From contig JACDCC010000148.1 in the NCBI GenBank assembly GCA_013694595.1, forward strand, positions 1 through 33,040: DNA of 33,040 bases, given 5' to 3'. Under the pieces are notes generated by a model. It searched no databases. It had not been told where the DNA came from and was given only the letters and a program-made list of their open reading frames with translations. The DNA comes from Chthoniobacterales bacterium. Its GTDB lineage: Bacteria; Verrucomicrobiota; Verrucomicrobiia; Chthoniobacterales; UBA10450. Of the stretch, positions 10,832 to 26,118 are shown one piece after another (position 1 is the first letter of the stretch; the number at the start of each line of letters is the position of its first letter). Both the position numbers and the translations under genes were made by a program.

Positions 10832-11698
10832 TTAGGCCTCGACCGGCAGCTCTACGTCCACTGGGCGTTCTTTTTTGCCCAATGCGCGGCGAAGCTTCGA
10901 GAGCGCTATATTTTGCAGCTGGCGAATACGCTCGCGCGTGACGCCGAATTTCTTGCCGACTTCTTCGAGCGTCTTCGGCTTGCCGCCGTCCAGCCCGAAG
11001 CGGGAGAAGATGATCTTCCGTTCGCGATCATCGAGCACGTCGAGCAACCCGCCGACTTCGTTGCGCAAGTTCTTGTCGCGGAGCAGCTCGAAGGGCGTCT
11101 GAGCTTCTTCGTCGCCGACGATCTCGCCAAACTCGGTGGAATCGTCGTCGCTGATCGGCGCGTCGAGTGAAGCGGGGCGAATCGAGACTGTCTTCAGCTG
11201 CGACACTTTGCCGCTCGCGATTCCGATTTCCTCGCCCAGTTCATCATCGGTCGGTTCGCGGCCGAGTTCCTCGCTCATCTGCAGCGAGACGCGGCGCATC
11301 TTCGAGATTTTGTCGACCAGATGAACCGGCAGACGGATCGTCTTCGATTGGTTCGCGAGTGCGCGCTTGATCGATTGTTTAATCCACCACGCTGCGTACG
11401 TGCTCAACTTGCCACCTTTGGCGGGGTCAAAACGCTCCACGGCCTTCATCAGGCCGATGTTGCCTTCAGAAATCAGGTCGAGCAGCGGGAGACCGAGGTT
11501 CGCGTAGTCGTGCGCGATTTTGACGACCAGGCGGAGGTTCGAGCGAATCATCAGCGCACGCGCTTCGCGGTCGCCCTTCTTGATCTTCGCGGCGAGCTCG
11601 ATCTCCTGATCGGGGGTCAAAAGCGGGATCTGTCCGATCTCGCGCAGGTAAATCTTTATTCCAGTATCGCTATCTTCAGCAGCCATAAAACTCTTCAT
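10832..11698 (-). CDS. Sigma-70 family RNA polymerase sigma factor (RpoD/SigA/RpoS group, short form)
   Basis: This 288-residue protein directs RNA polymerase to promoters. Region 1.2 spans about 12-43 (DTGIKIYLREIGQIPLLT). Region 2, at about 49-119, includes RSNLRLVVKIAHDYANLGL and the -10-reading YAAWWIKQSIKRAL. Region 3 is at about 128-205. Region 4, at about 216-275, has the -35-reading helix TLEEVGKKFGVTRERIRQ. There is no region 1.1 and no long non-conserved insertion, so it resembles group 2 sigma factors or compact primary sigmas; I cannot choose. A second start at M5 (ATGGCTGCT) has a weak AAGAG before it. Upstream lies a 368-base divergent region shared with the glycan operon; downstream is a good intrinsic terminator. 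Confidence 0.93.
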   Translation of the reverse strand: MKSFMAAEDSDTGIKIYLREIGQIPLLTPDQEIELAAKIKKGDREARALMIRSNLRLVVKIAHDYANLGLPLLDLISEGNIGLMKAVERFDPAKGGKLSTYAAWWIKQSIKRALANQSKTIRLPVHLVDKISKMRRVSLQMSEELGREPTDDELGEEIGIASGKVSQLKTVSIRPASLDAPISDDDSTEFGEIVGDEEAQTPFELLRDKNLRNEVGGLLDVLDDRERKIIFSRFGLDGGKPKTLEEVGKKFGVTRERIRQLQNIALSKLRRALGKKERPVDVELPVEA

Positions 11699-12066
11699 GT
11701 AAGGGGAAACGGCACCGCCCTTGCAAGTGTCCAGTTGTTTACGTTTTGGGGACCCCGGCAGGTTGCACGTTTGGTTAAGATAAGAACTATTTAACGGGGT
11801 TAACTATTCGGAATTCTGACAGGGGGCGGTTGCCTTTCGTTCAAAGTTTTTACAGCTGAGCGCAAGCAGCGGTTGCGTAGTGGTTTATGAGAGTCTCAGC
11901 ACCGTCCGAATTTGTCGGAAATTCCCCACCGCCGGGCTCTCAGGAAAGCATTTTGCAAAGTATCCCCCACACCTGCGACGATCGTCACCAGTGGCTGTTT
12001 TTCTGGATTGACAGCACCGTTCGAGGACTTACAGAACCGCCTGTCGCCAGGGAGGCGCTCTGATAT
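11699..12066. promoter_or_regulatory. Divergent regulatory region between sigma factor and glycan operon
   Basis: These 368 bases contain no gene. On the plus side a perfect TTGACA lies at 12008-12013, but the -10 at the right distance (TACAGA, 12030-12035) is poor. AGGGAGG at 12049-12055 is a ribosome binding site 11 nt before the first operon ATG. A possible RNA stem TGAGAG/CTCTCA (11888-11893 with 11937-11942) encloses a TCCGA-ATTTG-TCGGA hairpin (11905-11919). AT-rich DNA near 11770-11810 probably holds the sigma gene promoter. I recognise no known riboswitch. Confidence 0.45.
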
Positions 12067-13188
12067 ATGGGGTCAAAAACGGTTCTGATTACGGGTGGGG
12101 CAGGGTTCGTAGGGTCACATCTCGCGGATCAATTGCTGGAGCACGGCTACAAAGTCCGCGCCTTGGATAATCTCGCGCCGCAGGTTCACGGTCCGTCCGC
12201 CGGCCGGCCGGAGTATCTCGCCGACGACGTGGAGCTCCAGATTGGCGACGTTCGCGATCGCGATGCCGTCGCGCGCGCGCTGGATGGAGTCGACGCGGTT
12301 TACCATTTTGCCGCCACGGTCGGGGTGGGGCAGAGCATGTATCAGATCGCCGAGTACACGAGCGTGAACGGCGAGGGCACTGCGGTGCTGCTGGAGGCTT
12401 TGGCGCAGAATCCGGTCGAGCGGCTGGTCGTCGCCTCGAGCATGAGCATTTACGGTGAAGGACTCTACGCCACCCGTAACGGTGAACTCGTGGAGGGGCA
12501 GGAACGCTCTCTCGAGCAACTAAAGGCGCACGATTGGGAAGTCCGCGGGCCGGACGGCGAGCCGCTTCAGCCAGTGCCGACACCGGAGTCGAAATGCCCG
12601 GCAGTCCCATCTGTCTACGCCATCTCGAAGTACCAGCAGGAACGCCTCTGCATGACGGTCGGCCGCGCGTACGGAATGGAAACGGTCGGGTTGCGCTTCT
12701 TCAACATCTACGGCACCCGCCAGGCGCTCTCGAATCCATACACCGGCGTGCTCGCGATCTTTGCCTCCAGGTTTCTGAACAACAATGCGCCGTTGATTAA
12801 CGAGGACGGCAAGCAGCAGCGCGATTTCGTGAGCGTGCACGATATTGCACAAGCTTGCCGGCTTGCGCTCGAAGTGCCTGATGCCGCCGATCGAGTGTTC
12901 AACGTCGGCAGCGGTCAGCGTTTTTCGATCCGGCAAATTGCCGACCAGATGGCAGACGTGCTCGGGAAGCCGGAAATCGAGCCGGAAGTCGTGGGGCGCT
13001 GCCGGGTGGGCGACATCCGTAATTGCTTTGCCGACATCACCTTGGCTCGGGATATTCTTGGCTACGCGCCTGCTGTGACATTGGAGGAAGGTTTGGTTGA
13101 GCTGGCGGAATGGCTCGAAGGCCAAACCGCAGTGGATAATGTCGCTGACGCTTCCCGCGAACTAGCCGCGCGAGGGCTCGCGGTATGA
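12067..13188 (+). CDS. NAD-dependent sugar epimerase/dehydratase (extended SDR)
   Basis: This 373-residue enzyme is the first gene of the thirteen-gene operon. It has the NAD-binding GGAGFVGSH (G10-H18), D34 for cofactor ribose binding, YHFAA at about 79, VASSMSIYG at 122-130 and the catalytic YAISK pair Y184/K188. Later come RFFNIYGTRQALSNPYTGV and the C-terminal FNVGSGQ and DI motifs. It acts on a nucleotide sugar such as UDP- or CDP-hexose; the exact reaction (4-epimerisation or similar) is not determined. About 45 residues between the SSM motif and YxxxK (about 132-180) are longer than in GalE. The ATG is preceded by AGGGAGG. Its stop overlaps the next start (ATGA). Confidence 0.88.
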   Translation: MGSKTVLITGGAGFVGSHLADQLLEHGYKVRALDNLAPQVHGPSAGRPEYLADDVELQIGDVRDRDAVARALDGVDAVYHFAATVGVGQSMYQIAEYTSVNGEGTAVLLEALAQNPVERLVVASSMSIYGEGLYATRNGELVEGQERSLEQLKAHDWEVRGPDGEPLQPVPTPESKCPAVPSVYAISKYQQERLCMTVGRAYGMETVGLRFFNIYGTRQALSNPYTGVLAIFASRFLNNNAPLINEDGKQQRDFVSVHDIAQACRLALEVPDAADRVFNVGSGQRFSIRQIADQMADVLGKPEIEPEVVGRCRVGDIRNCFADITLARDILGYAPAVTLEEGLVELAEWLEGQTAVDNVADASRELAARGLAV

Positions 13189-15197
13189 GCGGCCCCGCCA
13201 ATCGCCCTGTTTTCGGTGTCCTGGAATGGCTGCGCCCGGGCGAGGAAGAGCGCGTGGAACAGCTGCTCGGCGACCTGAAGGCAATCGGCGCGACGGAGCT
13301 TCGCACCGGCATCTCCTGGGCCGACTGGCATACGGCCGGCGGGCAGGATTGGTATGCGTGGCTGCTGCCGCGGCTGGCCAGCGAAGTGAACGTGCTGCCG
13401 TGCTTCCACTACACGCCGCCGACGCTCGGGATCGCACCGAACATCTGCTCGCCCCCGCGCGACCCGAAGCAATACGCCGATTTTCTCGACGTGTTCATCA
13501 CCCGCTTCGGTGAACACTTCGAATGGGTGGAGCTCTGGAATAAGCCGAAGAACCCCCTCGAGTGGGACACGACGCTGGACCCGAACTGGCTGATCTTTTG
13601 CGAGATGGTGGGTGGCGCGGCGCATTGGGCGCAGAAGCGCGGCAAAAAGACGGTCCTCGGCGCGAGCGGTCCGATGGATGCGCAATGGGTGGGTCTGATG
13701 TGCGACCGCGGCGTCCTGCAATACATCGATGCCGTCGGGATTCACGGGTTCCCCGGCACGTTCGAGTTCTGGTGGGACGGTTGGAACGCGAAAATCGCAC
13801 GCGTGCGCAACGTTCTCCTGCAGCACGGCTCGAAGGCGGAGATCTGGATTACAGAGACTGGTTACTCGACCTGGCGGCATGACGAGCGGGCGCAGATTGC
13901 TGCCTTTACCAACGTCATGGCTGCGCCCGCGGAGCGCGTCTACTGGTACGCGGCGCACGACATTGAGCCGGCACAAGCGATGGACGCCGTTTGCGCGGAC
14001 GAACGCGAATTCCATTTCGGACTTCGGCGCGCTGACGGTTCCGAGAAACTCCTGATGCGGCTGCTGCGTCAGGGCGGAGTTGAAGCTGTCAATCATCCGC
14101 CGTGGCTCGGCGACAAGGCGAAGAGCAACCCCTCGACGATCAAAAAACCGCCCGTGATGATCACCGGCGGCTCGGGATTTCTTGGGTGCAATCTCGCGCA
14201 TCGGCTCTGTTCCGAAGGCCAGCCAGTGCTGCTGTTCGATAACCTCTCCCGCGCCGGCGTGGAGCAAAACGCCGCGTGGCTTCGCGAAACGTACGGCGAC
14301 CTCGTGCAGGTGCAGGTGGCTGACATTCGCGACGCGCAGGCGCTCGGCGAAGCGGCGCAACGCTCTTCCGCCGTGTTTCACCTGGCGGCGCAGGTCGCGG
14401 TGACGAGCAGCCTCACAGCCCCGATCAATGATTTCGAGATCAACGCGCGCGGCACATTAAACCTGCTGGAAGCCCTGCGAGGGATGAGCAGCCCCCCGCC
14501 AGTCGTGTTCAATTCCACGAACAAAGTTTACGGCAGCCTCGATGATGTCGCCCTAAGGCTGAACGGCGCGCGCTACGAGCCCGACGACGAGCAAATCCGC
14601 GACAACGGAATTGGCGAGAATCAGCCGCTCGATTTCTACAGTCCCTACGGCTGCTCGAAAGGCGCGGCCGATCAGTACATCCTCGACTACGCGCGGACGT
14701 TCGGGTTACCGGCGGTCGTGTTCCGCATGAGTTGCATTTACGGGCCGCATCAGTTCGGCACGGAAGACCAGGGCTGGGTCGCACACTTCCTCATCCAGGC
14801 GATGAACAAGCGCTCCATCACGCTCTACGGAGACGGCAAACAGGTGCGTGACGTGTTGTTCGTGGAGGATCTCGTCGACGCGTTGCTGCTCGCGCGAAAG
14901 AATATCCGCACGCTTTCCGGCCAGGTCTTCAACCTCGGCGGCGGCCCGCAGAACACCACGTGCCTGCTGGAGTTGCTCGACTGGATCGGCGAACTCGACG
15001 GTGAGAAACCGCGCGTCTCGTGGGGCAATTGGCGCCCGGGCGATCAGCGCTACTACGTGAGCAACTTCTCGAAATTTCAGACTGCCACCGGCTGGAAGCC
15101 GAAAGTCGGAATGCGCGAAGGCGTGGAACGACTGCACGCGTGGCTGCGCGAATTCCGTTCCGCAAATGCGGCGCGCGAAGCTCTCGCCACCGCGTGA
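13185..15197 (+). CDS. Fusion: glycosidase-like TIM barrel + CDP-paratose/tyvelose 2-epimerase-like SDR
   Basis: This 670-residue protein has two parts. Residues 8 to about 300 form a GH39/GH5-like barrel in normal order: ELRTGISWADW at 38-48, FHYTPPTLGIAP at 74-85, the beta-4 motif VELWNKPKN at 115-123, IHGFP at 186-190, the nucleophile motif WITETG with E224, and VYWYAAHD at 252-259. The usual acid/base glutamate of WNEP is K120 (codon AAG at 13542-13544), so hydrolysis is unlikely. Residues from about 323 form an extended SDR very like Salmonella CDP-tyvelose 2-epimerase: GGSGFLG at 328-334, FNSTNKVYG, DFYSPYGCSKGAADQYILDY with catalytic Y and K, DQGWV and GKQVRDVLFVEDL. The epimerase inverts C2 of a CDP-dideoxyhexose in known relatives; here the sugar is unknown. 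The barrel may bind a glycan or nucleotide sugar. Confidence 0.85.
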   Translation: MSGPANRPVFGVLEWLRPGEEERVEQLLGDLKAIGATELRTGISWADWHTAGGQDWYAWLLPRLASEVNVLPCFHYTPPTLGIAPNICSPPRDPKQYADFLDVFITRFGEHFEWVELWNKPKNPLEWDTTLDPNWLIFCEMVGGAAHWAQKRGKKTVLGASGPMDAQWVGLMCDRGVLQYIDAVGIHGFPGTFEFWWDGWNAKIARVRNVLLQHGSKAEIWITETGYSTWRHDERAQIAAFTNVMAAPAERVYWYAAHDIEPAQAMDAVCADEREFHFGLRRADGSEKLLMRLLRQGGVEAVNHPPWLGDKAKSNPSTIKKPPVMITGGSGFLGCNLAHRLCSEGQPVLLFDNLSRAGVEQNAAWLRETYGDLVQVQVADIRDAQALGEAAQRSSAVFHLAAQVAVTSSLTAPINDFEINARGTLNLLEALRGMSSPPPVVFNSTNKVYGSLDDVALRLNGARYEPDDEQIRDNGIGENQPLDFYSPYGCSKGAADQYILDYARTFGLPAVVFRMSCIYGPHQFGTEDQGWVAHFLIQAMNKRSITLYGDGKQVRDVLFVEDLVDALLLARKNIRTLSGQVFNLGGGPQNTTCLLELLDWIGELDGEKPRVSWGNWRPGDQRYYVSNFSKFQTATGWKPKVGMREGVERLHAWLREFRSANAAREALATA

Positions 15198-16210
15198 TGG
15201 CGACCGACGCGCAAGCGCCGGTTGCACAGCGGAGTCGACCTGCCGTTTCGACGATGCGCGCCGCCATCATCGCGGAGCCGCAGCGCGTTGAAACTACCGA
15301 CGTGCCTGTGCCGGCTCCCGCCGCCGACCAAGTTCTCGTTAGGCTGGAAGGCTGCGGCGTTTGCGCCTCGAACATCCCGCCCTGGCAAGGCAAGCCGTGG
15401 TTTAATTATCCGATGTCGCCGGGTGCGCTCGGCCATGAAAGCTGGGGCCGTGTGGAAGCCGTCGGCGAGCAAGTGACGGACTTCGCGCCACGCGATCGCG
15501 TCGCGATGATCTCTAATAATGCCTATGCCGAATACGATGTCGCGGATGTCAGTGCGGTGGTGAAGCTCCCGGAGACATTAGACGACGAAGCATTCCCGGC
15601 GGAGCCGCTCGGCTGCGCGATGAACATTTTCAAGCGCGCGGCGATCCAGAAAAACGACACGGTGGCGATTGTCGGCATCGGGTTTCTCGGCGCACTTCTA
15701 ACACAGCTTGCGACCGCCGCCGGCGCGCGAGTGATTGCGATTTCCCGTCGTTCGTTTGCTTTGAACTTCGCTCGTGACATGGGCGCGGCGCATGTGGGCA
15801 CGATGGATGATCACCAAAAGATCATCGATGAAGTGAAGCGGCTGACCGATGGCAGGTTTTGCGATGTGGTGATCGAGGCCGTCGGTAAACAATGGCCGCT
15901 CGATTTGTCGGGTGAGCTGACGCGCGAACGCGGGCGCCTCGTCGTCGCTGGTTATCATCAAGACGGCCCCCGGCAGATAAACATGCAGCTGTGGAACTGG
16001 CGCGGGCTCGACGTGATCAACGCACATGAACGTGATCCGGCAATCTATCTCGAAGGCATGCGCGCGGCGGTGCGCGCGGTCGAGACCGGGCTGTTAAATC
16101 CGCGCCCACTCTACACGCACCATTTTCCGCTGGAGCAGCTTGGCGCAGCATTGAACATGAGCTCAGAGCGTCCTGACGGCTTCATGAAAGCGCTGATCCG
16201 GATGTCATGA
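15197..16210 (+). CDS. Zinc-type medium-chain dehydrogenase
   Basis: This 337-residue NAD(P)-dependent oxidoreductase of the MDR superfamily starts at an ATG that overlaps the previous stop (TGATG). M20 (MRAAIIAEP) is an alternative start that fits the conserved domain exactly. The catalytic zinc site is suggested by C56 (GCGVCASN) and H80-E81 (LGHESWG). The usual four-cysteine structural zinc lobe is absent. The Rossmann motif is VGIGFLG at 159-165. Relatives act on polyols, sugars or alcohols; within this operon, oxidation or reduction of a sugar, nucleotide sugar or inositol is plausible but not shown. The gene ends in an ATGA overlap with the next one, indicating translational coupling. 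Confidence 0.85.
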   Translation: MATDAQAPVAQRSRPAVSTMRAAIIAEPQRVETTDVPVPAPAADQVLVRLEGCGVCASNIPPWQGKPWFNYPMSPGALGHESWGRVEAVGEQVTDFAPRDRVAMISNNAYAEYDVADVSAVVKLPETLDDEAFPAEPLGCAMNIFKRAAIQKNDTVAIVGIGFLGALLTQLATAAGARVIAISRRSFALNFARDMGAAHVGTMDDHQKIIDEVKRLTDGRFCDVVIEAVGKQWPLDLSGELTRERGRLVVAGYHQDGPRQINMQLWNWRGLDVINAHERDPAIYLEGMRAAVRAVETGLLNPRPLYTHHFPLEQLGAALNMSSERPDGFMKALIRMS

Positions 16211-17310
16211 GCGGAGCACGTGAACCGCAGCGCATCTTGATGACGGCCGACACCGTCGGAGGCGTCTGGACCTACTCGATCGAGCTGATCCGTGCGTTGC
16301 CGCACATTGAATTCGCGCTGGCGACGATGGGCGCTCCGATCACGGCCGAGCAACGCGCCGAAGCTTCGCAGCTACCAAATGTGCAGCTGTTTCCGAGCAG
16401 CTATGCGCTCGAATGGATGGATGATCCATGGCAGGACGTCGATCGCGCCGGCGATTGGCTGCTGGAGATCGCGCGCTCGTTCAATCCCCACGTCGTCCAC
16501 CTGAACGGCTACGCGCATGCAAGCCTCCGGTGGGCGGCGCCCGTGCTCGTTGTCGCGCACTCGGATGTGCTCTCGTGGTGGGCAGCGGTGAAGAAATGCG
16601 AGGCGCCTCGCGGCTACTCCGAATATCGGAAGCGCGTGGCGGAGGGGCTGAACGCTGCAGACGTCGTCGTCGCGCCAACCGCGGCGATGTTGCGCTCGTT
16701 AGGCGAAAATTTCAGCTGGCGCGGTGACGGACGAGTCATTTGGAACGGACGTGATCCACAGCTCTTCTCGTCTGGGATTAAGCGAGACGTCATCTTCTCA
16801 GCCGGTCGGGCCTGGGACGAGGCGAAGAACCTCGCCGCGTTGGAAGCGGCGGCTCCGCAGGTCCGTTGGCCGATCGAAATAGCCGGCGACACCTCGCATC
16901 CGAATGGAGCGGAGCTGCAATTTAAGTACGTGCGTGCCTTGGGAAAGTTGCCGGGCCATCAGCTAGTGGAGCGGCTCGCAACGAGCGCGATTTACGCCCT
17001 GCCGGCGCGTTACGAGCCGTTCGGGCTCTCCGCACTAGAGGCGGCACTCTCCGGTTGCGCGTTGGTCCTCGGTGATGTTCCCTCGCTCCGCGAAGTGTGG
17101 GGCGATGCGGCGCGGTTTGTGGACGCAGATGATCACCATGCGCTGGCGGCAGCGTTGAACGCGCTGATCGACGACGTTGCCGAACGCGACAAGCTCGCGG
17201 ACCGCGCGCAGCGACGGGCAGCCGAGTTTTCGCCGCAGCGAATGGCGGCTGGTTACAACGCTGCGTATTCGGATTGCCTGACGCCGCGCGCCGTGGAGAT
17301 GGTCCCGTGA
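16207..17310 (+). CDS. Family 4 glycosyltransferase
   Basis: This is a 367-residue GT-B enzyme. The N-terminal domain begins RILMTADTVGGVWTYSIELI, the glycine loop of GT4 enzymes. The C-terminal domain has the EX7E motif in ARYEPFGLSALEAALSG, followed by the conserved GDVPSLREVWGDAARFV that binds the donor nucleotide-sugar. It is a retaining transferase moving a hexose from UDP-, GDP- or similar donors in the cytoplasm; donor and acceptor are unknown. It overlaps both neighbours by 4 nt. It is not closely related to the four CgeB-type enzymes that accompany it. Confidence 0.9.
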   Translation: MSGAREPQRILMTADTVGGVWTYSIELIRALPHIEFALATMGAPITAEQRAEASQLPNVQLFPSSYALEWMDDPWQDVDRAGDWLLEIARSFNPHVVHLNGYAHASLRWAAPVLVVAHSDVLSWWAAVKKCEAPRGYSEYRKRVAEGLNAADVVVAPTAAMLRSLGENFSWRGDGRVIWNGRDPQLFSSGIKRDVIFSAGRAWDEAKNLAALEAAAPQVRWPIEIAGDTSHPNGAELQFKYVRALGKLPGHQLVERLATSAIYALPARYEPFGLSALEAALSGCALVLGDVPSLREVWGDAARFVDADDHHALAAALNALIDDVAERDKLADRAQRRAAEFSPQRMAAGYNAAYSDCLTPRAVEMVP

Positions 17311-18398
17311 AGGTCGTTCTCTTCTACCACTCGCTCGTCTCCGATTGGAACCACGGCAACGCGCATTTCCTGCGCGGAGTCGCGACGGAGCTGATCACGC
17401 GGGGCCACGAAGTCACGATCTACGAACCGACGGATTCGTGGAGCCGGGAGAATCTTGTGCAGGAGCATGGCGAATCGCCAATTGCCGAGTTCCATCAGCG
17501 TTACCCAAACCTACGGTCCACGCGTTACCGACTCGAGGAGCTTGACCTGTCCGAGGCGTTGGCCGGCGCAGATCTCGTCATCGTGCACGAGTGGAACGAG
17601 CACGAGCTTGTGCGACGTGTTGGCAAACACCGCAAGGAGCACGGTGGCTATCGCTTGTTCTTTCACGATACGCATCACCGCGCGATCACTTCGCCGGCGC
17701 AGATGCAGGGATACGATCTGTCGAACTACGACGGTGTGCTCGCGTATGGCGAGGGTCTCCGTAAGATCTACGTGCAGCGCGATTGGGCGCGACGCGCCTG
17801 GACGTGGCACGAAGCCGCCGACACGCGGGTGTTTCAGCCGCTCCCGCGCGGTGATTTCGACGGCGACCTCGTGTGGATCGGCAACTGGGGCGACGAGGAG
17901 CGTTCCGCGGAGCTGCAGGAGTTTCTGATCGAGCCAGTGGCAGCGCTGGGACTGAGCGCGAAGGTTTTTGGCGTTCGTTATCCTGACACTGCGCGCGAGC
18001 TGCTGCGCCGAGCCGGGATCGAGTACTCCGGCTGGCTGCCGAACTACCGCGCCCCGGAGCTTTTCGCGCGCTACCGGATGACGGTGCACGTGCCGCGGCG
18101 CCCGTATGTGGAAGCGCTGCCTGGCATTCCGACGATTCGTCCATTCGAGGCGCTCGGGTGTGGCATCCCGTTGATCTGCTCGCCGTGGGATGATGCCGAG
18201 GGTCTGTTCACGCCAGGAAAAGATTTCGTCATCGCGCGCAATGCTGACGAAATGAAGAAGCACATGCGCGCGTTGCTCGAGGACAAACAGATGGCGCGCG
18301 AGCTTTCGGAGCACGGACTCCGCACGATTCAGCAGCGACATACCTGTGCACATCGCGTGGACGAACTGCTCAGCATCTACGAAGAAGTAAACACGTGA
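17307..18398 (+). CDS. CgeB-type glycosyltransferase 1
   Basis: This 363-residue GT-B glycosyltransferase resembles the CgeB (spore-coat glycan) family. The start is the GTG overlapping the previous stop (GTGA), with GGAG about 10 nt before it. It begins KVVLFYHSLVSDWNHGNAHF, a GT-B N-terminal loop shared with three paralogues downstream. A C-terminal Glyco_trans_1_2-like domain has GWLPNYRAPELFARYRM, IPTIRPFEALGCGIPLICSP and LFTPGKDF. The middle LFFHDTHHRAITSP suggests several histidines near the active-site cleft. Donor and acceptor are unknown. Confidence 0.85.
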   Translation: MKVVLFYHSLVSDWNHGNAHFLRGVATELITRGHEVTIYEPTDSWSRENLVQEHGESPIAEFHQRYPNLRSTRYRLEELDLSEALAGADLVIVHEWNEHELVRRVGKHRKEHGGYRLFFHDTHHRAITSPAQMQGYDLSNYDGVLAYGEGLRKIYVQRDWARRAWTWHEAADTRVFQPLPRGDFDGDLVWIGNWGDEERSAELQEFLIEPVAALGLSAKVFGVRYPDTARELLRRAGIEYSGWLPNYRAPELFARYRMTVHVPRRPYVEALPGIPTIRPFEALGCGIPLICSPWDDAEGLFTPGKDFVIARNADEMKKHMRALLEDKQMARELSEHGLRTIQQRHTCAHRVDELLSIYEEVNT

Positions 18399-19468
18399 AC
18401 ATCGCCTTCTTCGCTTCGAGCCTGCTCTCCGCCTATTGGAACGGCGCGGCCACTTACTACCGCGGCATCGTCAAGGCGCTGCATGCGAACGGCCATCGCA
18501 TCACGTTCTACGAGCCAATCGCGTACGATCGCCCGCAGCATCGTGACATTGAGCCGCCGAGCTGGTGTGATGTGGTCGTCTACGAGGGCACGGAAGAAGC
18601 GGCCTGGCGCCAAATCGAAGCAGCCCGCGGTGCGGACATGATCGTAAAGGCGAGCGGCGTCGGCATCTTCGACGAGCTGCTCGAGTCGGCCGTGCTAACG
18701 CTGAAGACGCCGAACAATCTTGTCATCTTCTGGGACGTCGATGCGCCGGCGACCCTCGACCGCATCGAAAGTGATGCCGCGGATGCGTTCCACGCGTGTA
18801 TTCCGCAATACGATTTCATCCTTACCTACGGCGGCGGCTTCCCGGTCGTGCGTGCTTACGAGTCGCACGGTGCGAAGCTGTGTGTGCCGATCTACAACGC
18901 GCTAGATCCGGACACGCACCACCCAGTGCCGCCGAACCCTAAATTTGAGCGAGATCTCGGGCTGCTCGCGAATCGCCTGCCGGACCGTGAACAGCGCGTC
19001 GAACAATTCTTCCTCAGCACGGCCGCGAAACTCCCGAAGCACAAGTTCCTCTTTGGCGGCAACGGCTGGGAGGACAAACCGATGACGCCGAACGTGCGTT
19101 ATCTCGGGCACGTTTACACCGCTGATCACAACGCGTTCAACTGCACCTGCCGCTCGGTGTTGAACATCTGCCGCGAAAGCATGGCCCGATACGGCTTCTC
19201 GCCGCCCACACGCGTGTTTGAAGCAGCGGGCGCAGCTGCTTGCTTGATCACTGATGCCTGGGAAGGCGTGGAGCAATTTTTTAAGCCCGATACTGAGGTC
19301 CTTGTCGCGCACGACGGCGACGAAGTCGCCCATCACGTGCAGAGTTTAACCAGTGAACGCGCACGCGAGATCGGCGACGCAGCGTATCGGCGGGTCCTGG
19401 CAGAGCACACGTATTCGCATCGCGCCAAGCAGGTGGAAGAAGTGCTTCAGGGAGCGACAGCGCGATGA
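18395..19468 (+). CDS. CgeB-type glycosyltransferase 2
   Basis: This 357-residue protein starts at a GTG in a GTGA overlap. The N-terminal loop FFASSLLSAYWNGAATYYRG and FWDVDAPATL are the counterparts of SWGNGHAT and [10 protein letters not shown] in the later paralogues. The C-terminal domain carries RYLGHVYTADHNAFNC, LNICRESMARYGFSPPTRVF and EAAGAAACLITDAWEGVEQF. It keeps the conserved RVFEAAG donor-binding helix. It is probably a cytoplasmic transferase that adds one sugar to a growing glycoside, acting next to its paralogues; specificity cannot be read. It is the most divergent of the group in its middle section. Confidence 0.82.
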   Translation: MNIAFFASSLLSAYWNGAATYYRGIVKALHANGHRITFYEPIAYDRPQHRDIEPPSWCDVVVYEGTEEAAWRQIEAARGADMIVKASGVGIFDELLESAVLTLKTPNNLVIFWDVDAPATLDRIESDAADAFHACIPQYDFILTYGGGFPVVRAYESHGAKLCVPIYNALDPDTHHPVPPNPKFERDLGLLANRLPDREQRVEQFFLSTAAKLPKHKFLFGGNGWEDKPMTPNVRYLGHVYTADHNAFNCTCRSVLNICRESMARYGFSPPTRVFEAAGAAACLITDAWEGVEQFFKPDTEVLVAHDGDEVAHHVQSLTSERAREIGDAAYRRVLAEHTYSHRAKQVEEVLQGATAR

Positions 19469-20565
19469 GGATCGTCATCCTCGGCCTGTCGATCACCTCT
19501 TCGTGGGGTAACGGCCACGCGACCACTTACCGCGCGTTGGTGCGTGAGCTTACCGCGACAGGGCACGATGTTTTGTTCCTGGAACGCGATCAGCCGTGGT
19601 ATGCGGAGAACCGCGATCTGCCGCAGCCGCCTTTTGGTGAAACGCAGCTCTACAAGAGCCTCACGCAGTTAAAGCGCCACTTCGCCAACGAGGTGCGGGA
19701 TGCGGACTGCGTGATCGTCGGCTCGTATGTGCCGGACGGCATCGCCGTGGGGGAGTGGGTGACGGCTCACGCGCACGGTGTCACGGCGTTTTACGACATC
19801 GACACTCCGGTTACACTGAGCGCCCTCGAGTGCGGCGACTGCGAATATCTCTCTGCTGAGTTGATCGCGCGTTACTCGCTGTATCTCTCATTCACCGGTG
19901 GCCCGACGCTCCGCAAGCTGGAGCGAGAATACGGGTCGCCCAAGGCTCGTGCGCTCTATTGCTCGGTTGATCCGGAGCTCTACTTTGCAGAACTCGTTCC
20001 ACCAAAGTGGGTGCTCGGTTATCTCGGCACCTACAGCGATGACCGCCAACCGACCGTCGATCGGCTGCTCCTCCAGCCTGCGGCGAAACTGCCGACGCAA
20101 CGCTTCGTTGTCGCCGGCCCGCAGTATCCGGATTCTATTCCGTGGCCGAAGAATGTGGAGCACATCACGCACCTGGAGCCCAAGAAACACCGGGCCTTTT
20201 ACAACGCGCAACGCTTCACGTTGAATGTCACTCGCGCCGACATGATTCGAGCCGGATTTTCGCCGAGCGTGCGGCTGTTCGAAGCAGCCGCCTGCGGCAC
20301 GCCGATCGTCAGCGATGAGTGGCCCGGTTTGAGCGAATTCTTCACGCCGGGCGAGGAGATTCTCATTGCTAGATCAACCGAAGATATGCTGGAGATTCTG
20401 CGTGAGATGTCAGACAGTGACGCTCGCGCGGTCGGTGAGCGTGCGCGCGAGCGAGTGCTCGCCGCGCATACTGCCGCGCACCGCGCCGCCGAGCTGGAGG
20501 GCTTCATCGAGGAGTGCCGGCATCAGTACGCGGAAAACGGCAGCGTTTGTGTGACAAAGGAGTGA
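19465..20565 (+). CDS. CgeB-type glycosyltransferase 3
   Basis: This 366-residue protein has an ATG overlapping the previous stop (ATGA). It begins [20 protein letters not shown] and contains [35 protein letters not shown] and [18 protein letters not shown]. The C-terminal donor site is [20 protein letters not shown] with [16 protein letters not shown]. It is clearly a paralogue of the gene at 21751, with the same block order and near-identical motifs. Its last codons carry the AAGGAG ribosome binding site of the inositol-phosphate synthase gene. It is predicted to transfer a sugar in the cytoplasm. Confidence 0.87.
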
Positions 20566-20569
20566 CAAC

Positions 20570-21754
20570 ATGAAAGACAAAATCCGCGTTGGAATCATTG
20601 GAGTGGGCAACTGCGCTTCCTCGCTCGTGCAAGGCATCGAGTTCTACCGCAATGCGAACCCTGACGAGTTCGTGCCGGGCTTGATGCATGTCGAACTCGG
20701 CGGCTATCACATCCGCGACATCGAGTTCAGTGCGGCTTTCGACATCGCGGCCACAAAGGTGGGGCGCGATCTCGGCGAAGCGATTTTCGCGGAGCCGAAC
20801 AACACCATTAAGTTCGCCGACTTGCCGAAGCTGGATGTGAAGGTGCACCGCGGCATGACGCACGACGGCTTGGGGAAGTACCTTAAGAAGGTCGTAAAAA
20901 AGTCGCCGGCTTCTACCGACGACATTGTCGGTATTCTGAAAAAGACGAAGACGGATGTGGTTGTCTCGTACCTGCCGGTGGGCTCCGAGATGGCTACGAA
21001 GTGGTATGTCGAGCAGATCCTGGATGCCGGCTGCGGCTTCATTAACTGCGTGCCCGTGTTCATTGCTTCGCAGCCTTACTGGCAGCGGCGCTTCGAGGAG
21101 CGGAAGCTTCCGATCATCGGCGACGACATCAAGTCGCAGGTCGGTGCAACGATTTCGCATCGCGTGATGACGAATCTGTTCCGCGAGCGGGGCGTCCGTC
21201 TGGATCGTACTTATCAACTGAACTTCGGCGGCAACACCGACTTCTTGAACATGCTCGAGCGCGAGCGGCTTGAGTCGAAGAAGATTTCCAAAACCCAAGC
21301 CGTCACCAGCCAGCTCGGCCACGCGATGCCCGCGAAGGATGTGCATGTCGGACCGAGCGATTACGTGCCGTGGCTGACTGATCGGAAGTGGTGCTACATT
21401 CGGATGGAAGGCACGACATTCGGCAACGTGCCGCTAAACTGCGAGATGAAGCTCGAGGTGTGGGATTCGCCGAACTCCGCGGGCGTCGTGATCGACGCGA
21501 TCCGGTGCGCCAAACTCGCGCTCGACCGCGGCCTCTCCGGTTCGCTTGTCGCGCCATCGAGCTACTTCATGAAATCGCCGCCGGTGCAGTTCACCGACGA
21601 CGAAGCGCGCACGAAAACCGAGGAATTCATCAAAGGCGATGACTCAGTCGTGTTACCCGGCCCGCTGAAACGCACGAGCAACGGCAACGGCAGCGGCAAC
21701 GGCCAGCGCAAAGCAGCGAAGAAGACGAAGAACGGCACCAAGTCGAAACGATGA
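20570..21754 (+). CDS. ino1: myo-Inositol-1(3)-phosphate synthase
   Basis: This 394-residue enzyme converts glucose 6-phosphate to inositol phosphate with bound NAD, the only de novo route to inositol. Family motifs are [16 protein letters not shown] at 7-22 (NAD binding), [58 protein letters not shown] and [12 protein letters not shown] with the conserved lysines. The length fits the short actinobacterial/archaeal form rather than the eukaryotic form of about 510 residues. The last 25 residues are a low-complexity N/G/K tail (about 369-394) that looks disordered. AAGGAG at 20557-20562 is an excellent ribosome binding site 7 nt from the ATG. The gene sits between two paralogous glycosyltransferases, so inositol is probably a building block of the product. 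Confidence 0.93.
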
Positions 21755-22833
21755 AGCTCGTTGTCTTCGGCCTCACGATTAGTTCGTCGTGGGGCAATGG
21801 ACACGCGACTTTGTTGCGGGCGCTGTTTCGGCAGCTGATCGCCCGCGGCTACTACATCATTTTCTTCGAGCACGATGTTCCGTACTACGCGGCGCATCGC
21901 GATTTGCATGAGCTGCCCGGCGGCAAGCTTGTTTTCTACAGCTCGTGGGAAGAAGCGATCAGCACGGCGCGGCATGAGCTCTCCGATGCCGACGCCGCAA
22001 TGGTCACTTCTTATTGTCCCGACGGCATCGCGGCTTCGGAACTAATCGGCGCGTCTTCTGCGCTCCGCGTGTTCTACGACATGGACACTCCTGTCACGTT
22101 GTCGAAGCTACGCGCGGGCGAGCCGCTGACGTATATTGATTCACGCGGGCTCGGCGAATTCGATCTCGTCTTGAGTTTTACTGGCGGAGGCGCGCTCACG
22201 GCGCTGCAGGAAGAACTCGGAGCGCGCAAAGTGGCTCCGCTCTACGGCAGCGTGGATCTGGATCTTTATCATCCCGTCGCTGCGCAGGAGCAGTATCGGG
22301 CCGCGTTCTCTTACCTCGGCACGTACGCCGCCGATCGTCAGCCGGCGCTTGAGCGCCTGTTCATCGAACCAGCGCGTCGGTTGCCGGAACAACGCTTCGC
22401 GATTGGCGGCGCGCAGTACCCGGCCGAGTTCCCGTGGGCGCCGAACATCTTCTTCCAACGCCACCTCGCGCCGGCAGAGCACGCTGCGTTTTTCTGCTCC
22501 TCGCGCCTGACGCTGAATGTGACGCGCGACACGATGCGATCGATGGGGTGGTGCCCGTCCGGGCGGTTATTCGAGGCGTCAGCGTGTGGTGTGCCGATGG
22601 TGAGCGACACGTGGGACGGACTCGACGAGTTCTTTACGCCCGGGGACGAGATCCTGACCGCGCAAACCACCGACGACGCACTGAACGCCCTGCAACTAAG
22701 CAATGCGGAGCTTTCGAGGATCGCAGCTGCAGCGAGAGAACGAACACTGACCGAACACACCGCGCAGCGGCGTTCCGAACAGCTCGAGGAGTTCTTCGTC
22801 ACCGCTCGCCAATCGGAGGCTGTAGCCGCCTGA
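21751..22833 (+). CDS. CgeB-type glycosyltransferase 4
   Basis: This 360-residue paralogue of the gene at 19465 begins [19 protein letters not shown], with [84 protein letters not shown] and [18 protein letters not shown]. The two differ enough to have distinct substrates. The start overlaps the inositol synthase stop (ATGA). The duplication probably arose locally, with the synthase gene now between the copies. It is a likely retaining GT-B enzyme acting in the cytoplasm. Confidence 0.87.
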
Positions 22834-23579
22834 TGTTAGGAATTATCCCAGCCGCCGGCGCGGGCACACGGATTCAGCCGCTGGCCTTCTCAAAGGAATT
22901 GCTGCCGGTGGGTGGCAGGCTCGACGGCGATATCGAGCGTCCGCGCGCCGTGAGCGAGTATCTCGTTGAGCGCCTAGCGATTGCTGGCGCGACGAAGATC
23001 TGCTTCGTCATTTCCGCCGGTAAATCCGACATCCTCGAGTACTACGGCGGCGGCAAGGTGAACTCGACGAGCTTCATCTTCGTGGTGCAGCCCCAGCCCG
23101 CCGGCTTGTGCGACGCCATTTTCCACGCAGCTCCGGTTGTCGCCCCTGGCGAGACAGTTGCGATCGGATTGCCGGATACCATTTGGTTTCCGGAGAATGG
23201 ATTGTCTGCGCTGCCGGACCATGAGCTTTCGTTTCTGTTGTTTCCGGTCGAGCAGCCGCAATTCTTCGATGCTGTCGTGACGGATGAAAACGGACGCGTC
23301 GAAGAAATCCAGGTGAAACAGACCGACGCCCAGTCGCACTGGGTTTGGGGCGCATTCAAGATGCCGGGGTCGGTCTTTCATGACCTGCACCGCCTGTGGC
23401 TGGAGCGCCAGCAACGCGACGAGTACTTCGGCACGCTCGTGAATGCCTGGATCGCGAAAGGCGGCAGCGCGTCGGGAATTCGCGCTGGTGAGTCGTATGT
23501 CGATGTCGGAACGCTCGAAGGTTATCGCGCAGCGATCCGGCTGCTGAACGAGCGCCGCGAACACGAGGCGATCCCGTAA
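22833..23579 (+). CDS. Sugar-phosphate nucleotidyltransferase (RmlA/GalU-like)
   Basis: This 248-residue enzyme makes an NDP-sugar from a sugar 1-phosphate and an NTP. The signature GIIPAAGAGTRIQPLAFSKE spans 3-22, with the GAGTR phosphate loop and a conserved lysine at 21, followed by LLPVGG. Further motifs are EYLVERLAIAGATKICFVIS, QPQPAGLCDAIFHAAP, IGLPDTIWFPEN (the metal-binding GLPD replaces the usual GD), and ESYVDVGTLEGYRAA near the end. The start is the ATG of a TGATG overlap; GGAGG lies some 16 nt upstream. It probably supplies the activated sugar for the glycosyltransferases and epimerases of this operon. Uridylyl-, thymidylyl- or cytidylyltransfer are all possible; a CDP-sugar would suit the tyvelose-epimerase-like partner. 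Confidence 0.88.
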   Translation: MLGIIPAAGAGTRIQPLAFSKELLPVGGRLDGDIERPRAVSEYLVERLAIAGATKICFVISAGKSDILEYYGGGKVNSTSFIFVVQPQPAGLCDAIFHAAPVVAPGETVAIGLPDTIWFPENGLSALPDHELSFLLFPVEQPQFFDAVVTDENGRVEEIQVKQTDAQSHWVWGAFKMPGSVFHDLHRLWLERQQRDEYFGTLVNAWIAKGGSASGIRAGESYVDVGTLEGYRAAIRLLNERREHEAIP

Positions 23580-23581
23580 GC

Positions 23582-24367
23582 ATGGACACAGTAACCGCGA
23601 TGAGTCCCGCTGAGACGCAGGAGCGGATCGATGAGTTTGGTGCGTGGTTCCAGAACCTGGAGCTGAACGGCGTGCAAACGGCGCCGCAGCATTTTCTCGG
23701 TGATTATCCTGCGGTGAAGTTCGCCGGCTTCGCACATGCGTTGCCTGACGACCTGACGGGCAAGAGCGTGCTCGATATTGGCTGCAACGCGGGCTTTTAC
23801 TCGCTGGAGATGAAACGGCGGGGCGCCTCCCGTGTGCTGGGCGTGGACTTCGATGAACGCTATCTGGCGCAGGCTCGGTTCGCGGCTGAAGTGCACGGCG
23901 TCGACATCGAATTCCGGCAACTGTCGGTCTACGACGTCGGCACGCTCGGCGAGAAGTTCGACCTCGTGATCTTCATGGGCGTGCTCTACCACCTGCGCCA
24001 TCCGCTGCTCGCGCTCGATCTCATTCGCGAGCACGTCGCGAAGGATCTGATGCTGTTTCAATCGATGCAGCGCGGCAGCGAAGACGCGATGCAGGTCGAA
24101 GCGGACTATGACTTCTGGCAGACGGAGATGTTCGCGCGGCCCGACTTCCCGGTGATGTATTTCATCGAGCATAAATACGCCGGCGATCCGACAAACTGGT
24201 GGATCCCGAATCGCGCGTGCACGGAAGCAATGCTGCGGAGTTCCGGGTTCGATATCATCGCGCATCCTGAAAATGAGGTTTTCGTCTGCAAAGTTCGCGC
24301 GGCCGACAACGAGAGCGACCTCACGCGTGCGACCCGCCAGGCGAAGGAATCGCTCCGCGCTTCGTGA
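23582..24367 (+). CDS. SAM-dependent methyltransferase (TIGR04290/Rta_06860-like)
   Basis: This 261-residue methyltransferase has WFQNLELNGVQTAPQHFLGD at 22-41, motif I VLDIGCNAGFYSLEMKRRGA at 63-82, VLGVDFDERYL at 85-95, and FDLVIFMGVLYHLRHPLLAL. The C-terminal part contains MYFIEHKYAGDPTNWWIPNR. The general fold resembles CmoB-type enzymes. From memory this matches the family named TIGR04290, which tends to sit in glycan clusters such as this one; I could not verify that. It would methylate a sugar or inositol hydroxyl (inference). It starts 2 nt after the previous stop. It is followed by the only sizeable gap within the operon, which holds a palindromic repeat. Confidence 0.85.
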   Translation: MDTVTAMSPAETQERIDEFGAWFQNLELNGVQTAPQHFLGDYPAVKFAGFAHALPDDLTGKSVLDIGCNAGFYSLEMKRRGASRVLGVDFDERYLAQARFAAEVHGVDIEFRQLSVYDVGTLGEKFDLVIFMGVLYHLRHPLLALDLIREHVAKDLMLFQSMQRGSEDAMQVEADYDFWQTEMFARPDFPVMYFIEHKYAGDPTNWWIPNRACTEAMLRSSGFDIIAHPENEVFVCKVRAADNESDLTRATRQAKESLRAS

Positions 24368-24395
24368 TGCTTATGGCGCTCGGCCCACTGCACTC

Positions 24396-24490
24396 TGTCA
24401 TTCCGAGCGAAGCCGACGAATCCGGTGGACTCTCCTTGACGGTTCCGCCACGGGGTTCCTCCACTGCGCTTCGCTCCGGTCGAAATGACA
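24396..24490. repeat. Palindromic repeat inside the operon (GTCATTCCGAG family)
   Basis: This 95-bp element is bounded by TGTCATT (24396-24402) and AATGACA (24484-24490), with imperfect inverted arms containing CCGAGCGAAGC and GCGCTTCGCTCCGG. A related element lies at 30574-30665. It contains no coding capacity. It lies between the methyltransferase and barrel genes and could be a transcript-processing or attenuation point, or just a neutral insertion. Confidence 0.65.
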
Positions 24491-24523
24491 GCGGAGTTGC
24501 GCACGAGGAGAACGGGGGGCGAA

Positions 24524-25435
24524 ATGGTTGAAGCGGTCATGCTCTGGAACGAGCCGAACAACAAGTCGCACTGGGACAATGCGCTCGACCCGGAGTGGCG
24601 GCAGTTCGGCGAGATGGTGAATCTCGCCGCGCGAGCGATTGCGGCGGAGAACGATACTGTCCTGCGCGTGCTCGGTGGGATGTCGCCGATCGACGCCGGC
24701 TGGATCAAACGCATGGAGGAATTCGGCGTGTTGGAGACGCTTGATGCCGTGGCGGTGCACGGCTTCCCGCTCGACTGGAACAACTGGATGCTCGACGAAT
24801 GGCCGAACTGGCTCCGTGAGATCCAGGCCGTCACGGATTTGCCCGTCTGGGTTTCCGAAGTCGGGATCTCGACTTTCGGCGCGGAGGAAGTGCAGGAGTT
24901 CGGCTTACGTCGAACGGCCGAGCTGCTGATCGGGCGTGCGCCGCGCATTCATTGGTATTCGCTTTACGATTTACCAGCCGCCTGGCCCGCGACCACGCGT
25001 CACAAGGAGGCGGAGGGTTCCTCCTATTACCGCCACTTCCACATGGGCCTGCTGCGTGAGGATGGCACGCCGAAGAAAGCGCTGCAGCATTTCAGCGAGT
25101 TCACTCCGGAGCTCGGGATTTGTCAGTGGTTCCACTTTGAAGATCATCGGCTCGACGACGCGGTCAGATGGCTGCGCGAGCTCGGGGTGAAACATCTGCG
25201 CACCGGCTTGAGCTGGGCGGATAGCTTTCGACCGAACGCTGACGCCTGGTTCGACCGGCAGATGGCGGCGCTGGAGGAGTTTGATGTCACGATCACCTAC
25301 TGTTTCACGCCGGAGCACCGAGGGATTGCGCCGCACCACACGAGTCCGCCGTTGGTGAACGAGGAGTACGCGGAATTCTGTGCGCGGATGACGCGTCGTT
25401 ACGTTCCGCAGCGTTCTGTCGCTACTTCGACGTAG
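24524..25435 (+). CDS. Glycosidase-like TIM barrel with swapped halves (circular permutation)
   Basis: This 303-residue protein starts at the ATG at 24524, preceded by GGGGGG; an ATG at 24485 lies inside the palindromic repeat and is less likely. The first half carries the later strands of a GH39-like barrel: beta-4 MLWNEPNN with acid/base E10, VHGFPLDWNNW at 78-88, nucleophile motif VWVSEVG with E112, and IHWYSLYDL at 142-150. The second half carries the early strands: VKHLRTGLSWADS at 222-234 and FTPEHRGIAPHHTSPP at 261-276. In the fusion protein at 13185 the same motifs come in the opposite order. Both catalytic glutamates are present, so it may be an active glycosidase or transglycosidase. 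There is no signal peptide, so it acts in the cytoplasm. Confidence 0.8.
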   Translation: MVEAVMLWNEPNNKSHWDNALDPEWRQFGEMVNLAARAIAAENDTVLRVLGGMSPIDAGWIKRMEEFGVLETLDAVAVHGFPLDWNNWMLDEWPNWLREIQAVTDLPVWVSEVGISTFGAEEVQEFGLRRTAELLIGRAPRIHWYSLYDLPAAWPATTRHKEAEGSSYYRHFHMGLLREDGTPKKALQHFSEFTPELGICQWFHFEDHRLDDAVRWLRELGVKHLRTGLSWADSFRPNADAWFDRQMAALEEFDVTITYCFTPEHRGIAPHHTSPPLVNEEYAEFCARMTRRYVPQRSVATST

Positions 25436-25491
25436 CAGGCCAGGCGCAGACAGCCGCGCGGTGCAGAGTGGCGCAAGCGCGGCAGGAGTTC

Positions 25492-26118
25492 ATGACCACC
25501 AATTTCCTCTTCATCCGCCACGGAGCACACGATTACCTCGGCCGAGCGATTGCCGGACGGCTTGCTGGCGTGCACTTGAACGAGCTCGGCCGCCAGCAGG
25601 CGGAGCATCTGGCAGAGAAGCTTTCGCTGCTGCCGGTCGATGCGATTTTCAGCGGGCCGCTCGAGCGGGTGCGCGAAACTGCGGAGCCGATCTGCCGTCA
25701 GTTCGGCCTCTCGTCGCAAGTCGACGAAGGATTCACCGAAATCGGGCTGGGCGGCTGGGAAGATCGGCCGTTCACCGAACTGGCGGGAGAGCCGTTGTGG
25801 GATCGGTTTAACCGCTTCCGGAGCAGCACCGCGGCCGACGGCGGCGAGCTGATGCTCGAGGTGCAGGCGCGTGCGGTGCGGAAGTTAATTGAGCTTCGCG
25901 GCCAGTACCGCTTCGTGGTGATCGTCACCCATGGTGACGTGGTCCGCGCAGTGATGGCGCATTTCCTCGGCATTCATCTCGATCTTTTCTTCCGCCTGGA
26001 AATCGATCCCGCGTCGCTCAGCCTCGTTGAGTTAGGCGACGATTTTGCGCGTGTGCGACTGCTGAACGCGCCGGGCGAAGGATCCCCGCTGGTGCTGCCG
26101 GCCATTCGCCACCAGTGA
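25492..26118 (+). CDS. Histidine phosphatase (phosphoglycerate mutase-like)
   Basis: This 208-residue enzyme has the phospho-accepting FLFIRHG with H10, a second arginine and glutamate in SGPLERVRETAEP, GWEDRPF, and the second catalytic histidine in IVTHGDVVRAV. This branch includes small-molecule phosphatases such as those acting on ribazole phosphate or glucosyl-3-phosphoglycerate. In this operon it could remove phosphate from inositol phosphate or a glycosylated phosphate intermediate; that is inference. The ATG at 25492 follows AGGAG at a good distance and is preferred over the GTG at 25468. It is the last gene of the series. A separate remnant of a sister gene lies 0.8 kb downstream. Confidence 0.88.
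   Translation: MTTNFLFIRHGAHDYLGRAIAGRLAGVHLNELGRQQAEHLAEKLSLLPVDAIFSGPLERVRETAEPICRQFGLSSQVDEGFTEIGLGGWEDRPFTELAGEPLWDRFNRFRSSTAADGGELMLEVQARAVRKLIELRGQYRFVVIVTHGDVVRAVMAHFLGIHLDLFFRLEIDPASLSLVELGDDFARVRLLNAPGEGSPLVLPAIRHQ

Follow-up and report, generated by a model that had tools for sequence, protein, structure and literature searches.

The gene at positions 24524-25435 of the 33,040-nucleotide stretch of Chthoniobacterales DNA analysed here (hereafter the window) very probably represents a circular permutation of a glycosidase-type barrel, carried in the same gene cluster as an unpermuted relative. The first-pass annotation had proposed a permutation and not a truncation, and its proposal was borne out: every secondary-structure element of the fold is present in rotated order, no segment is missing, and the order is fixed in homologues of many phyla, in which no N-terminal half has been lost. 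The features discussed below are collected in Table 1.

Table 1 Features of the window relevant to the permuted gene and its cluster.
Feature	Positions	Strand	Evidence and remarks
Circularly permuted (beta/alpha)8 glycosidase-like gene	24524..25435	+	303 aa; probable start ATG 24524; start conserved in homologous loci, AlphaFold2 model, alignments
First half of permuted gene: beta-4 to beta-8, residues 1-194	24524..25105	+	Matches 13185 residues 113-291 and PslG 131-301
Second half of permuted gene: beta-1 to beta-3, residues 195-303	25106..25432	+	Matches 13185 residues 8-104 and PslG 21-130
Codon of E10 (WNEPN), predicted acid/base	24551..24553	+	Invariant in 51 aligned homologues; aligns with PslG WNEP Glu
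Codon of E112 (VSEVG), predicted nucleophile	24857..24859	+	Invariant in 51 aligned homologues; aligns with PslG STE Glu
Unpermuted homologous barrel, N-terminal domain of 670-aa fusion protein	13185..14114	+	AlphaFold2 pTM 0.89, PslG Z 26.8
Codon of K120, in place of acid/base Glu (WNKPKN), unpermuted barrel	13542..13544	+	
SDR / NAD-dependent epimerase domain of fusion protein	14148..15197	+	PF01370 E 8.9e-48
Four glycosyltransferase genes, conserved cluster core	16207..20565	+	
Inositol-3-phosphate synthase-like gene, conserved cluster member	20570..21754	+	PF01658; TIGR03450 below cut-off; synteny
TIGR04290 family methyltransferase, usual upstream neighbour of permuted gene	23582..24367	+	390 bits vs cut-off 300; synteny
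Histidine phosphatase family gene, frequent neighbour of permuted gene	25492..26118	+	PF00300; synteny

The N-terminus of the permuted protein reads MVEAVMLWNEPNNKSHWD. Its motifs were found exactly where the first-pass annotation had placed them, WNEPN (E10) and VSEVG (E112) preceding LRTGLSWADS and FTPEHRGIAP, so that the half bearing E10 and E112 (beta-4 to beta-8) indeed comes first and beta-1 to beta-3 second. The fusion protein encoded from 13185 had been described as unpermuted, and it does hold the related blocks in the usual order, at residues 8-104 and then 113-291. Residues 3-187 of the permuted protein aligned with residues 113-291 of this protein (about 37% identity), and residues 195-289 aligned with residues 8-104 (33% identity). 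Across the whole genome, the permuted protein and the 13185 barrel matched each other only, as two swapped pieces. A permutation-tolerant comparison, suggested along with the original proposal, was performed by local alignment to a doubled copy of the 13185 barrel. Residues 3-285 ran unbroken across the junction, with 36% identity over 269 aligned residues and a score of 376, whereas the best linear alignment scored 264 and none of 300 shuffles exceeded 65. The junction-spanning alignment is therefore far beyond chance.

Structure prediction gave the same picture. AlphaFold2 folded the permuted protein into a single compact, closed eight-stranded barrel (pLDDT 86.5, pTM 0.87) with strands at residues 2-7, 47-50, 75-80, 108-113, 142-145, 197-200, 224-230, and 254-260. 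The model of the 13185 barrel (pLDDT 88.6, pTM 0.89) has strands at residues 9-13, 38-44, 69-75, 114-117, 155-158, 183-188, 219-225, and 251-255, and the two lists contain the same elements, rotated by three. As anticipated, beta-4 to beta-8 and beta-1 to beta-3 close one barrel and do not form two incomplete domains. E10 lies just after the strand at 2-7 (beta-4) and E112 at the end of the strand at 108-113 (beta-7); judged from these strand ends and from the alignment to PslG (see below), the two glutamates would face each other. The unpermuted 13185 model matched PslG from end to end, with a Z of 26.8 across 292 residues. Sequential alignment of the permuted model with Foldseek and VIA-align returned partial matches to clan GH-A and full-length matches only to unrelated TIM barrels, whose low score (Z 13.4) is expected for a permuted chain. 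These matches reflect the sequential alignment and do not speak for a different fold.

A genome scan turned up relatives of the permuted gene in at least 589 stretches. The best 80 of them were 70-90% identical to the permuted protein and came from Alpha-, Beta-, Gamma-, and Deltaproteobacteria, Myxococcota, Verrucomicrobia, Acidobacteria, and others. The permuted order was seen in 41 of 41 sampled whole genomes with the gene, which is also located on pSymB of Sinorhizobium meliloti 1021 and on other plasmids, and which has been annotated as beta-xylosidase, glycosyl hydrolase, or hypothetical protein. Approximately 80 fetched loci from many phyla, finished genomes included, have a common start (M[IV]EA..WNEPNN) and a common end (C..M..RY after alpha-3), and neither a conserved upstream in-frame extension nor a tandem two-barrel intermediate was seen in the open reading frames around them. 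The common start, order, and end ruled out a truncation of the 24524-25435 gene. They also made it exceedingly improbable that the gene is an assembly artefact, namely a fragment of a larger protein deprived of its N-terminal half and joined to a stray segment from another copy. A short repeat directly upstream (24398-24500) could mark such a rearrangement, but its sequence is absent upstream in most of the approximately 80 loci, across which start, order, and end are identical, and the predicted structure is one closed barrel. The repeat as the cause of a rearrangement was accordingly dropped, the gene structure being unchanged in relatives without it.

The repeat itself, TCATTCCGAGCGAAG ... 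TCGAAATGAC, is widespread in the genome: a 15-mer taken from it occurs 87 times on both strands with at most one mismatch, and 0 times in the reversed control.

Family models recognized the permuted protein only in part. The window protein scored 17.3 bits against PF11790 (Glyco_hydro_cc; gathering threshold 21) and 14.2 against PF07745 (Glyco_hydro_53; cut-off 24), below the threshold in both cases, and no NCBIfam model reached its cut-off. PF11790 matched 40 of 51 members of the permuted family at E-values up to 0.01. The weak matches to PF11790 and PF07745 were confined to the beta-4 to beta-7 half, a partial coverage of the fold that is expected when the chain is permuted.

The best solved sequence match was PslG of Pseudomonas aeruginosa (GH39; PDB 4zn2, 5bx9, and 9g17), both for a profile of 51 permuted homologues and for a profile of 30 unpermuted barrels (E-values of 2.9e-6 and 4.2e-7). 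The unpermuted profile aligned linearly, positions 3-262 with PslG 21-307. The permuted profile aligned in two pieces, 197-295 with PslG 21-130 and 2-153 with PslG 131-301, and the break coincides exactly with the permuted termini, profile position 295 meeting PslG 130 and position 2 meeting PslG 131. PslG is a retaining endo-beta-glucosidase (PMC11912335) with E165 as acid/base and E276 as nucleophile (PMC7237758, PMC11912335). It has the WNEPN and STE blocks in common with the permuted protein, and E10 and E112 pair with E165 and E276, a pairing counted by hand in the printed alignment, in which chain index and residue number are offset by 26 residues. Both proteins are encoded in glycan-biosynthesis clusters. 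PslG is, however, unpermuted and predicted to be periplasmic, with a signal peptide and an additional carbohydrate-binding domain (PMC7237758), whereas the permuted protein is single-domain with no visible signal. Like clan GH-A enzymes of the GH39/PslG type, the permuted protein has a predicted (beta/alpha)8 barrel, an acid/base glutamate in an N-E-P motif at the end of beta-4, and a nucleophile glutamate at the end of beta-7; it lacks their linear order from beta-1 to beta-8. Because beta-4 to beta-8 precede beta-1 to beta-3, we regard it as homologous to the GH39/PslG type and do not file it as an ordinary GH39 member.

WNEPNN and [ST]E were present in 141 of 141 permuted-locus records matching the scan, a redundant set selected by flanking motifs. 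Homology to PslG predicts that E10 and E112 form the catalytic pair, and the permuted protein is probably an active, cytosolic retaining glycosidase or transglycosidase. No secretion signal was apparent in the protein, and since its chain opens with beta-4 and leaves no space for a signal peptide, it is inferred to act on a glycan intermediate in the cytosol. The chain of this GH39/PslG-related barrel begins just before beta-4 and ends after alpha-3, with the old C-terminus (after alpha-8) and the old N-terminus (before beta-1) bridged by a short linker. In the mechanism we propose, E10 would serve as acid/base and E112 as nucleophile in the cleavage or transfer of a beta-linked sugar, the target being an intermediate of the glycan that the neighbouring glycosyltransferases make.

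Two other roles were considered. The permuted gene is conserved at 70-78% across phyla, on par with the inositol-phosphate synthase, a level that resembles a core biosynthetic enzyme and is unusual for a hydrolase. Together with the fact that no glycosidase family model passes its cut-off, this might indicate that the protein has no catalytic activity and serves the cluster through binding or as a scaffold. Such a role appears improbable, as both catalytic glutamates and WNEPNN are invariant in the permuted family and exactly these residues have been lost by the unpermuted partner in the same genomes. Retaining clan GH-A enzymes are able to transglycosylate. A transglycosidase that builds a product linkage, in place of a hydrolase that trims or proofreads, would suit the high conservation, the cytosolic location inferred above, and the biosynthetic cluster found wherever the neighbourhood was readable, but PslG, the closest solved relative, is a retaining endo-beta-glucosidase (PMC11912335), and we consider this role doubtful.

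The glycan cluster of the window (positions 11500-26100) is found again in many soil bacteria, and rhizobial plasmids carry it as well. It includes two SDR epimerases, a zinc dehydrogenase, four glycosyltransferases, and the inositol-3-phosphate synthase-like gene, followed by another glycosyltransferase, a nucleotidyltransferase, the TIGR04290 methyltransferase, the permuted gene, and the histidine phosphatase. In Rhizobium, Tistrella, Paracoccus, and Xanthomonas, the core of the cluster is the same, but the barrel is unpermuted and fused to the epimerase; the inositol-phosphate synthase and the permuted gene were absent from the stretch seen in these clusters. Sinorhizobium and Roseomonas have the permuted gene and an unfused epimerase. 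The NAD-dependent epimerase/dehydratase proteins whose N-terminal domain is a barrel (Rhizobium, Tistrella, Xanthomonas, and 13185) resemble the permuted protein in having a homologous barrel and a similar TIGR04290 cluster, but their barrels are unpermuted and SDR-fused. The first-pass annotation had called the presence of both forms in one operon unusual, and our sampling agrees: of the 41 sampled genomes that carry the permuted gene, 7 also hold a fused unpermuted barrel somewhere, and fewer hold it in the same cluster. At two loci (L171 and L173), a TIGR04295 B12-binding radical SAM protein is encoded right behind the fused unpermuted barrel. Among the papers searched, none on the permuted family or on its glycan cluster was found.

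The two barrels of the window are not catalytically equivalent, because the fused one has lysine (K120) in place of the acid/base glutamate. This change from WNE to WNK in the 13185-15197 fusion protein is common to its close relatives. The first-pass annotation had noted neither this degeneration of the unpermuted barrel nor the stand-alone unpermuted form of a related genome (see below). More broadly, the epimerase-fused barrels have intact catalytic residues in most clusters without the permuted gene and altered ones in all sampled genomes with it: the catalytic N/E/E was altered in 15 of 15 sampled genomes with both forms and intact (WNEP plus nucleophile) in 13 of 16 with the fused barrel only. 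The alterations among genomes with both forms comprise WNK in Chthoniobacterales (six genomes), alanine as nucleophile (L176 and L177), WDEP with alanine as nucleophile (L178 and L179), loss of both catalytic glutamates (L181), WIDP and WLDP (L235 and L236), and WDGP (L253). In one such genome (G388), asparagine alone was lost and both glutamates were kept, the fused barrel (L180) reading WTEP. In G633, the fused barrel was recovered only as a fragment. Three of the 15 (L235, L236, and L253, all of which fitted) and several of the genomes with only the fused barrel were added to the sample once the pattern was already known. Three Myxococcota (L280, L281, and L282) did not fit, as their fused barrel is degenerate and the permuted gene was not found in them. 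Fisher's exact test for catalytic loss versus the permuted gene gave 3e-6 with genomes as units and 0.05 once these were merged into a few clades, and a phylogenetic sign test gave p = 0.5 on only 4-5 independent pairs, which are too few for significance. The link between the permuted gene and catalytic loss in the fused barrel is thus suggestive.

The loss could instead have been independent of the permuted gene, through lineage drift and inherited overlap. The small number of independent contrasts and the three Myxococcota would favour this, but none of the 15 genomes with both forms retains N, E, and E intact, and the losses are clade-specific (E to K; nucleophile E to A; N-E to I-D or L-D; E to G; or both glutamates). 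The loss of different residues in different clades argues for several separate inactivations, and we consider independent drift somewhat unlikely. A functional replacement of the fused barrel by the permuted one has, in our estimate, an even chance of being correct. The permuted enzyme appears to do the job of the epimerase-fused unpermuted barrel of related clusters, and where both forms occur, the fused barrel without its catalytic residues probably persists as a non-catalytic domain.

Phylogenetic analysis placed the permuted family in one clade with support of 100/100, apart from the fused family. The permuted form thus has a single origin and is fixed in a widely spread family. The nearest unpermuted relative of this clade (support 91/78, with a long-branch warning) is encoded in G036, a genome that belongs to the bacterial family of the window genome. 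It is a stand-alone unpermuted barrel (L333:5681-6748) with WNEPNN and VTETG, 355 amino acids long when counted from the only upstream methionine, and its gene overlaps the end of the methyltransferase gene. It lies directly behind the TIGR04290 methyltransferase, which is the slot of the permuted gene elsewhere, and the permuted gene was not found in this genome. These observations fit an origin in which a stand-alone barrel gene located behind the methyltransferase was permuted, for example by tandem duplication and trimming; no permutation intermediate was seen.

Natural circular permutation of whole TIM-barrel enzymes is rare, and the textbook case among glycosidases is GH70/GH13. Permuted glycosidases, as in GH70 glucansucrases relative to GH13 (PMC4919382) and in MalS of GH13_19 (PMC10223318), and GH39 enzymes are already known. 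Those permuted enzymes, although natural permutations like the present protein, are alpha-glucan-active, multidomain, and of clan GH-H, whereas the present protein is a compact single-domain, clan GH-A-like barrel. A permuted clan GH-A-like barrel was not found in the literature searched, and no Pfam or NCBIfam model covers the present protein, though a CAZy listing is possible.

No curated model claims the permuted gene, and its cluster makes a glycan in soil bacteria and Sinorhizobium, among others. Here, a permuted clan GH-A-like barrel has become fixed across several phyla, in hundreds of genomes, and unpermuted relatives from the same cluster type, once even from the same gene slot, are available for comparison with it. 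We see a roughly balanced case for a takeover: within an uncharacterised glycan pathway that is widespread and cytosolic, the permuted glycosidase would have assumed the catalysis of its unpermuted homologue, and the epimerase-fused barrel would then repeatedly have lost catalysis and persisted as a pseudo-enzyme domain beside its successor. The mutual pattern of catalytic loss makes this functional replacement testable.
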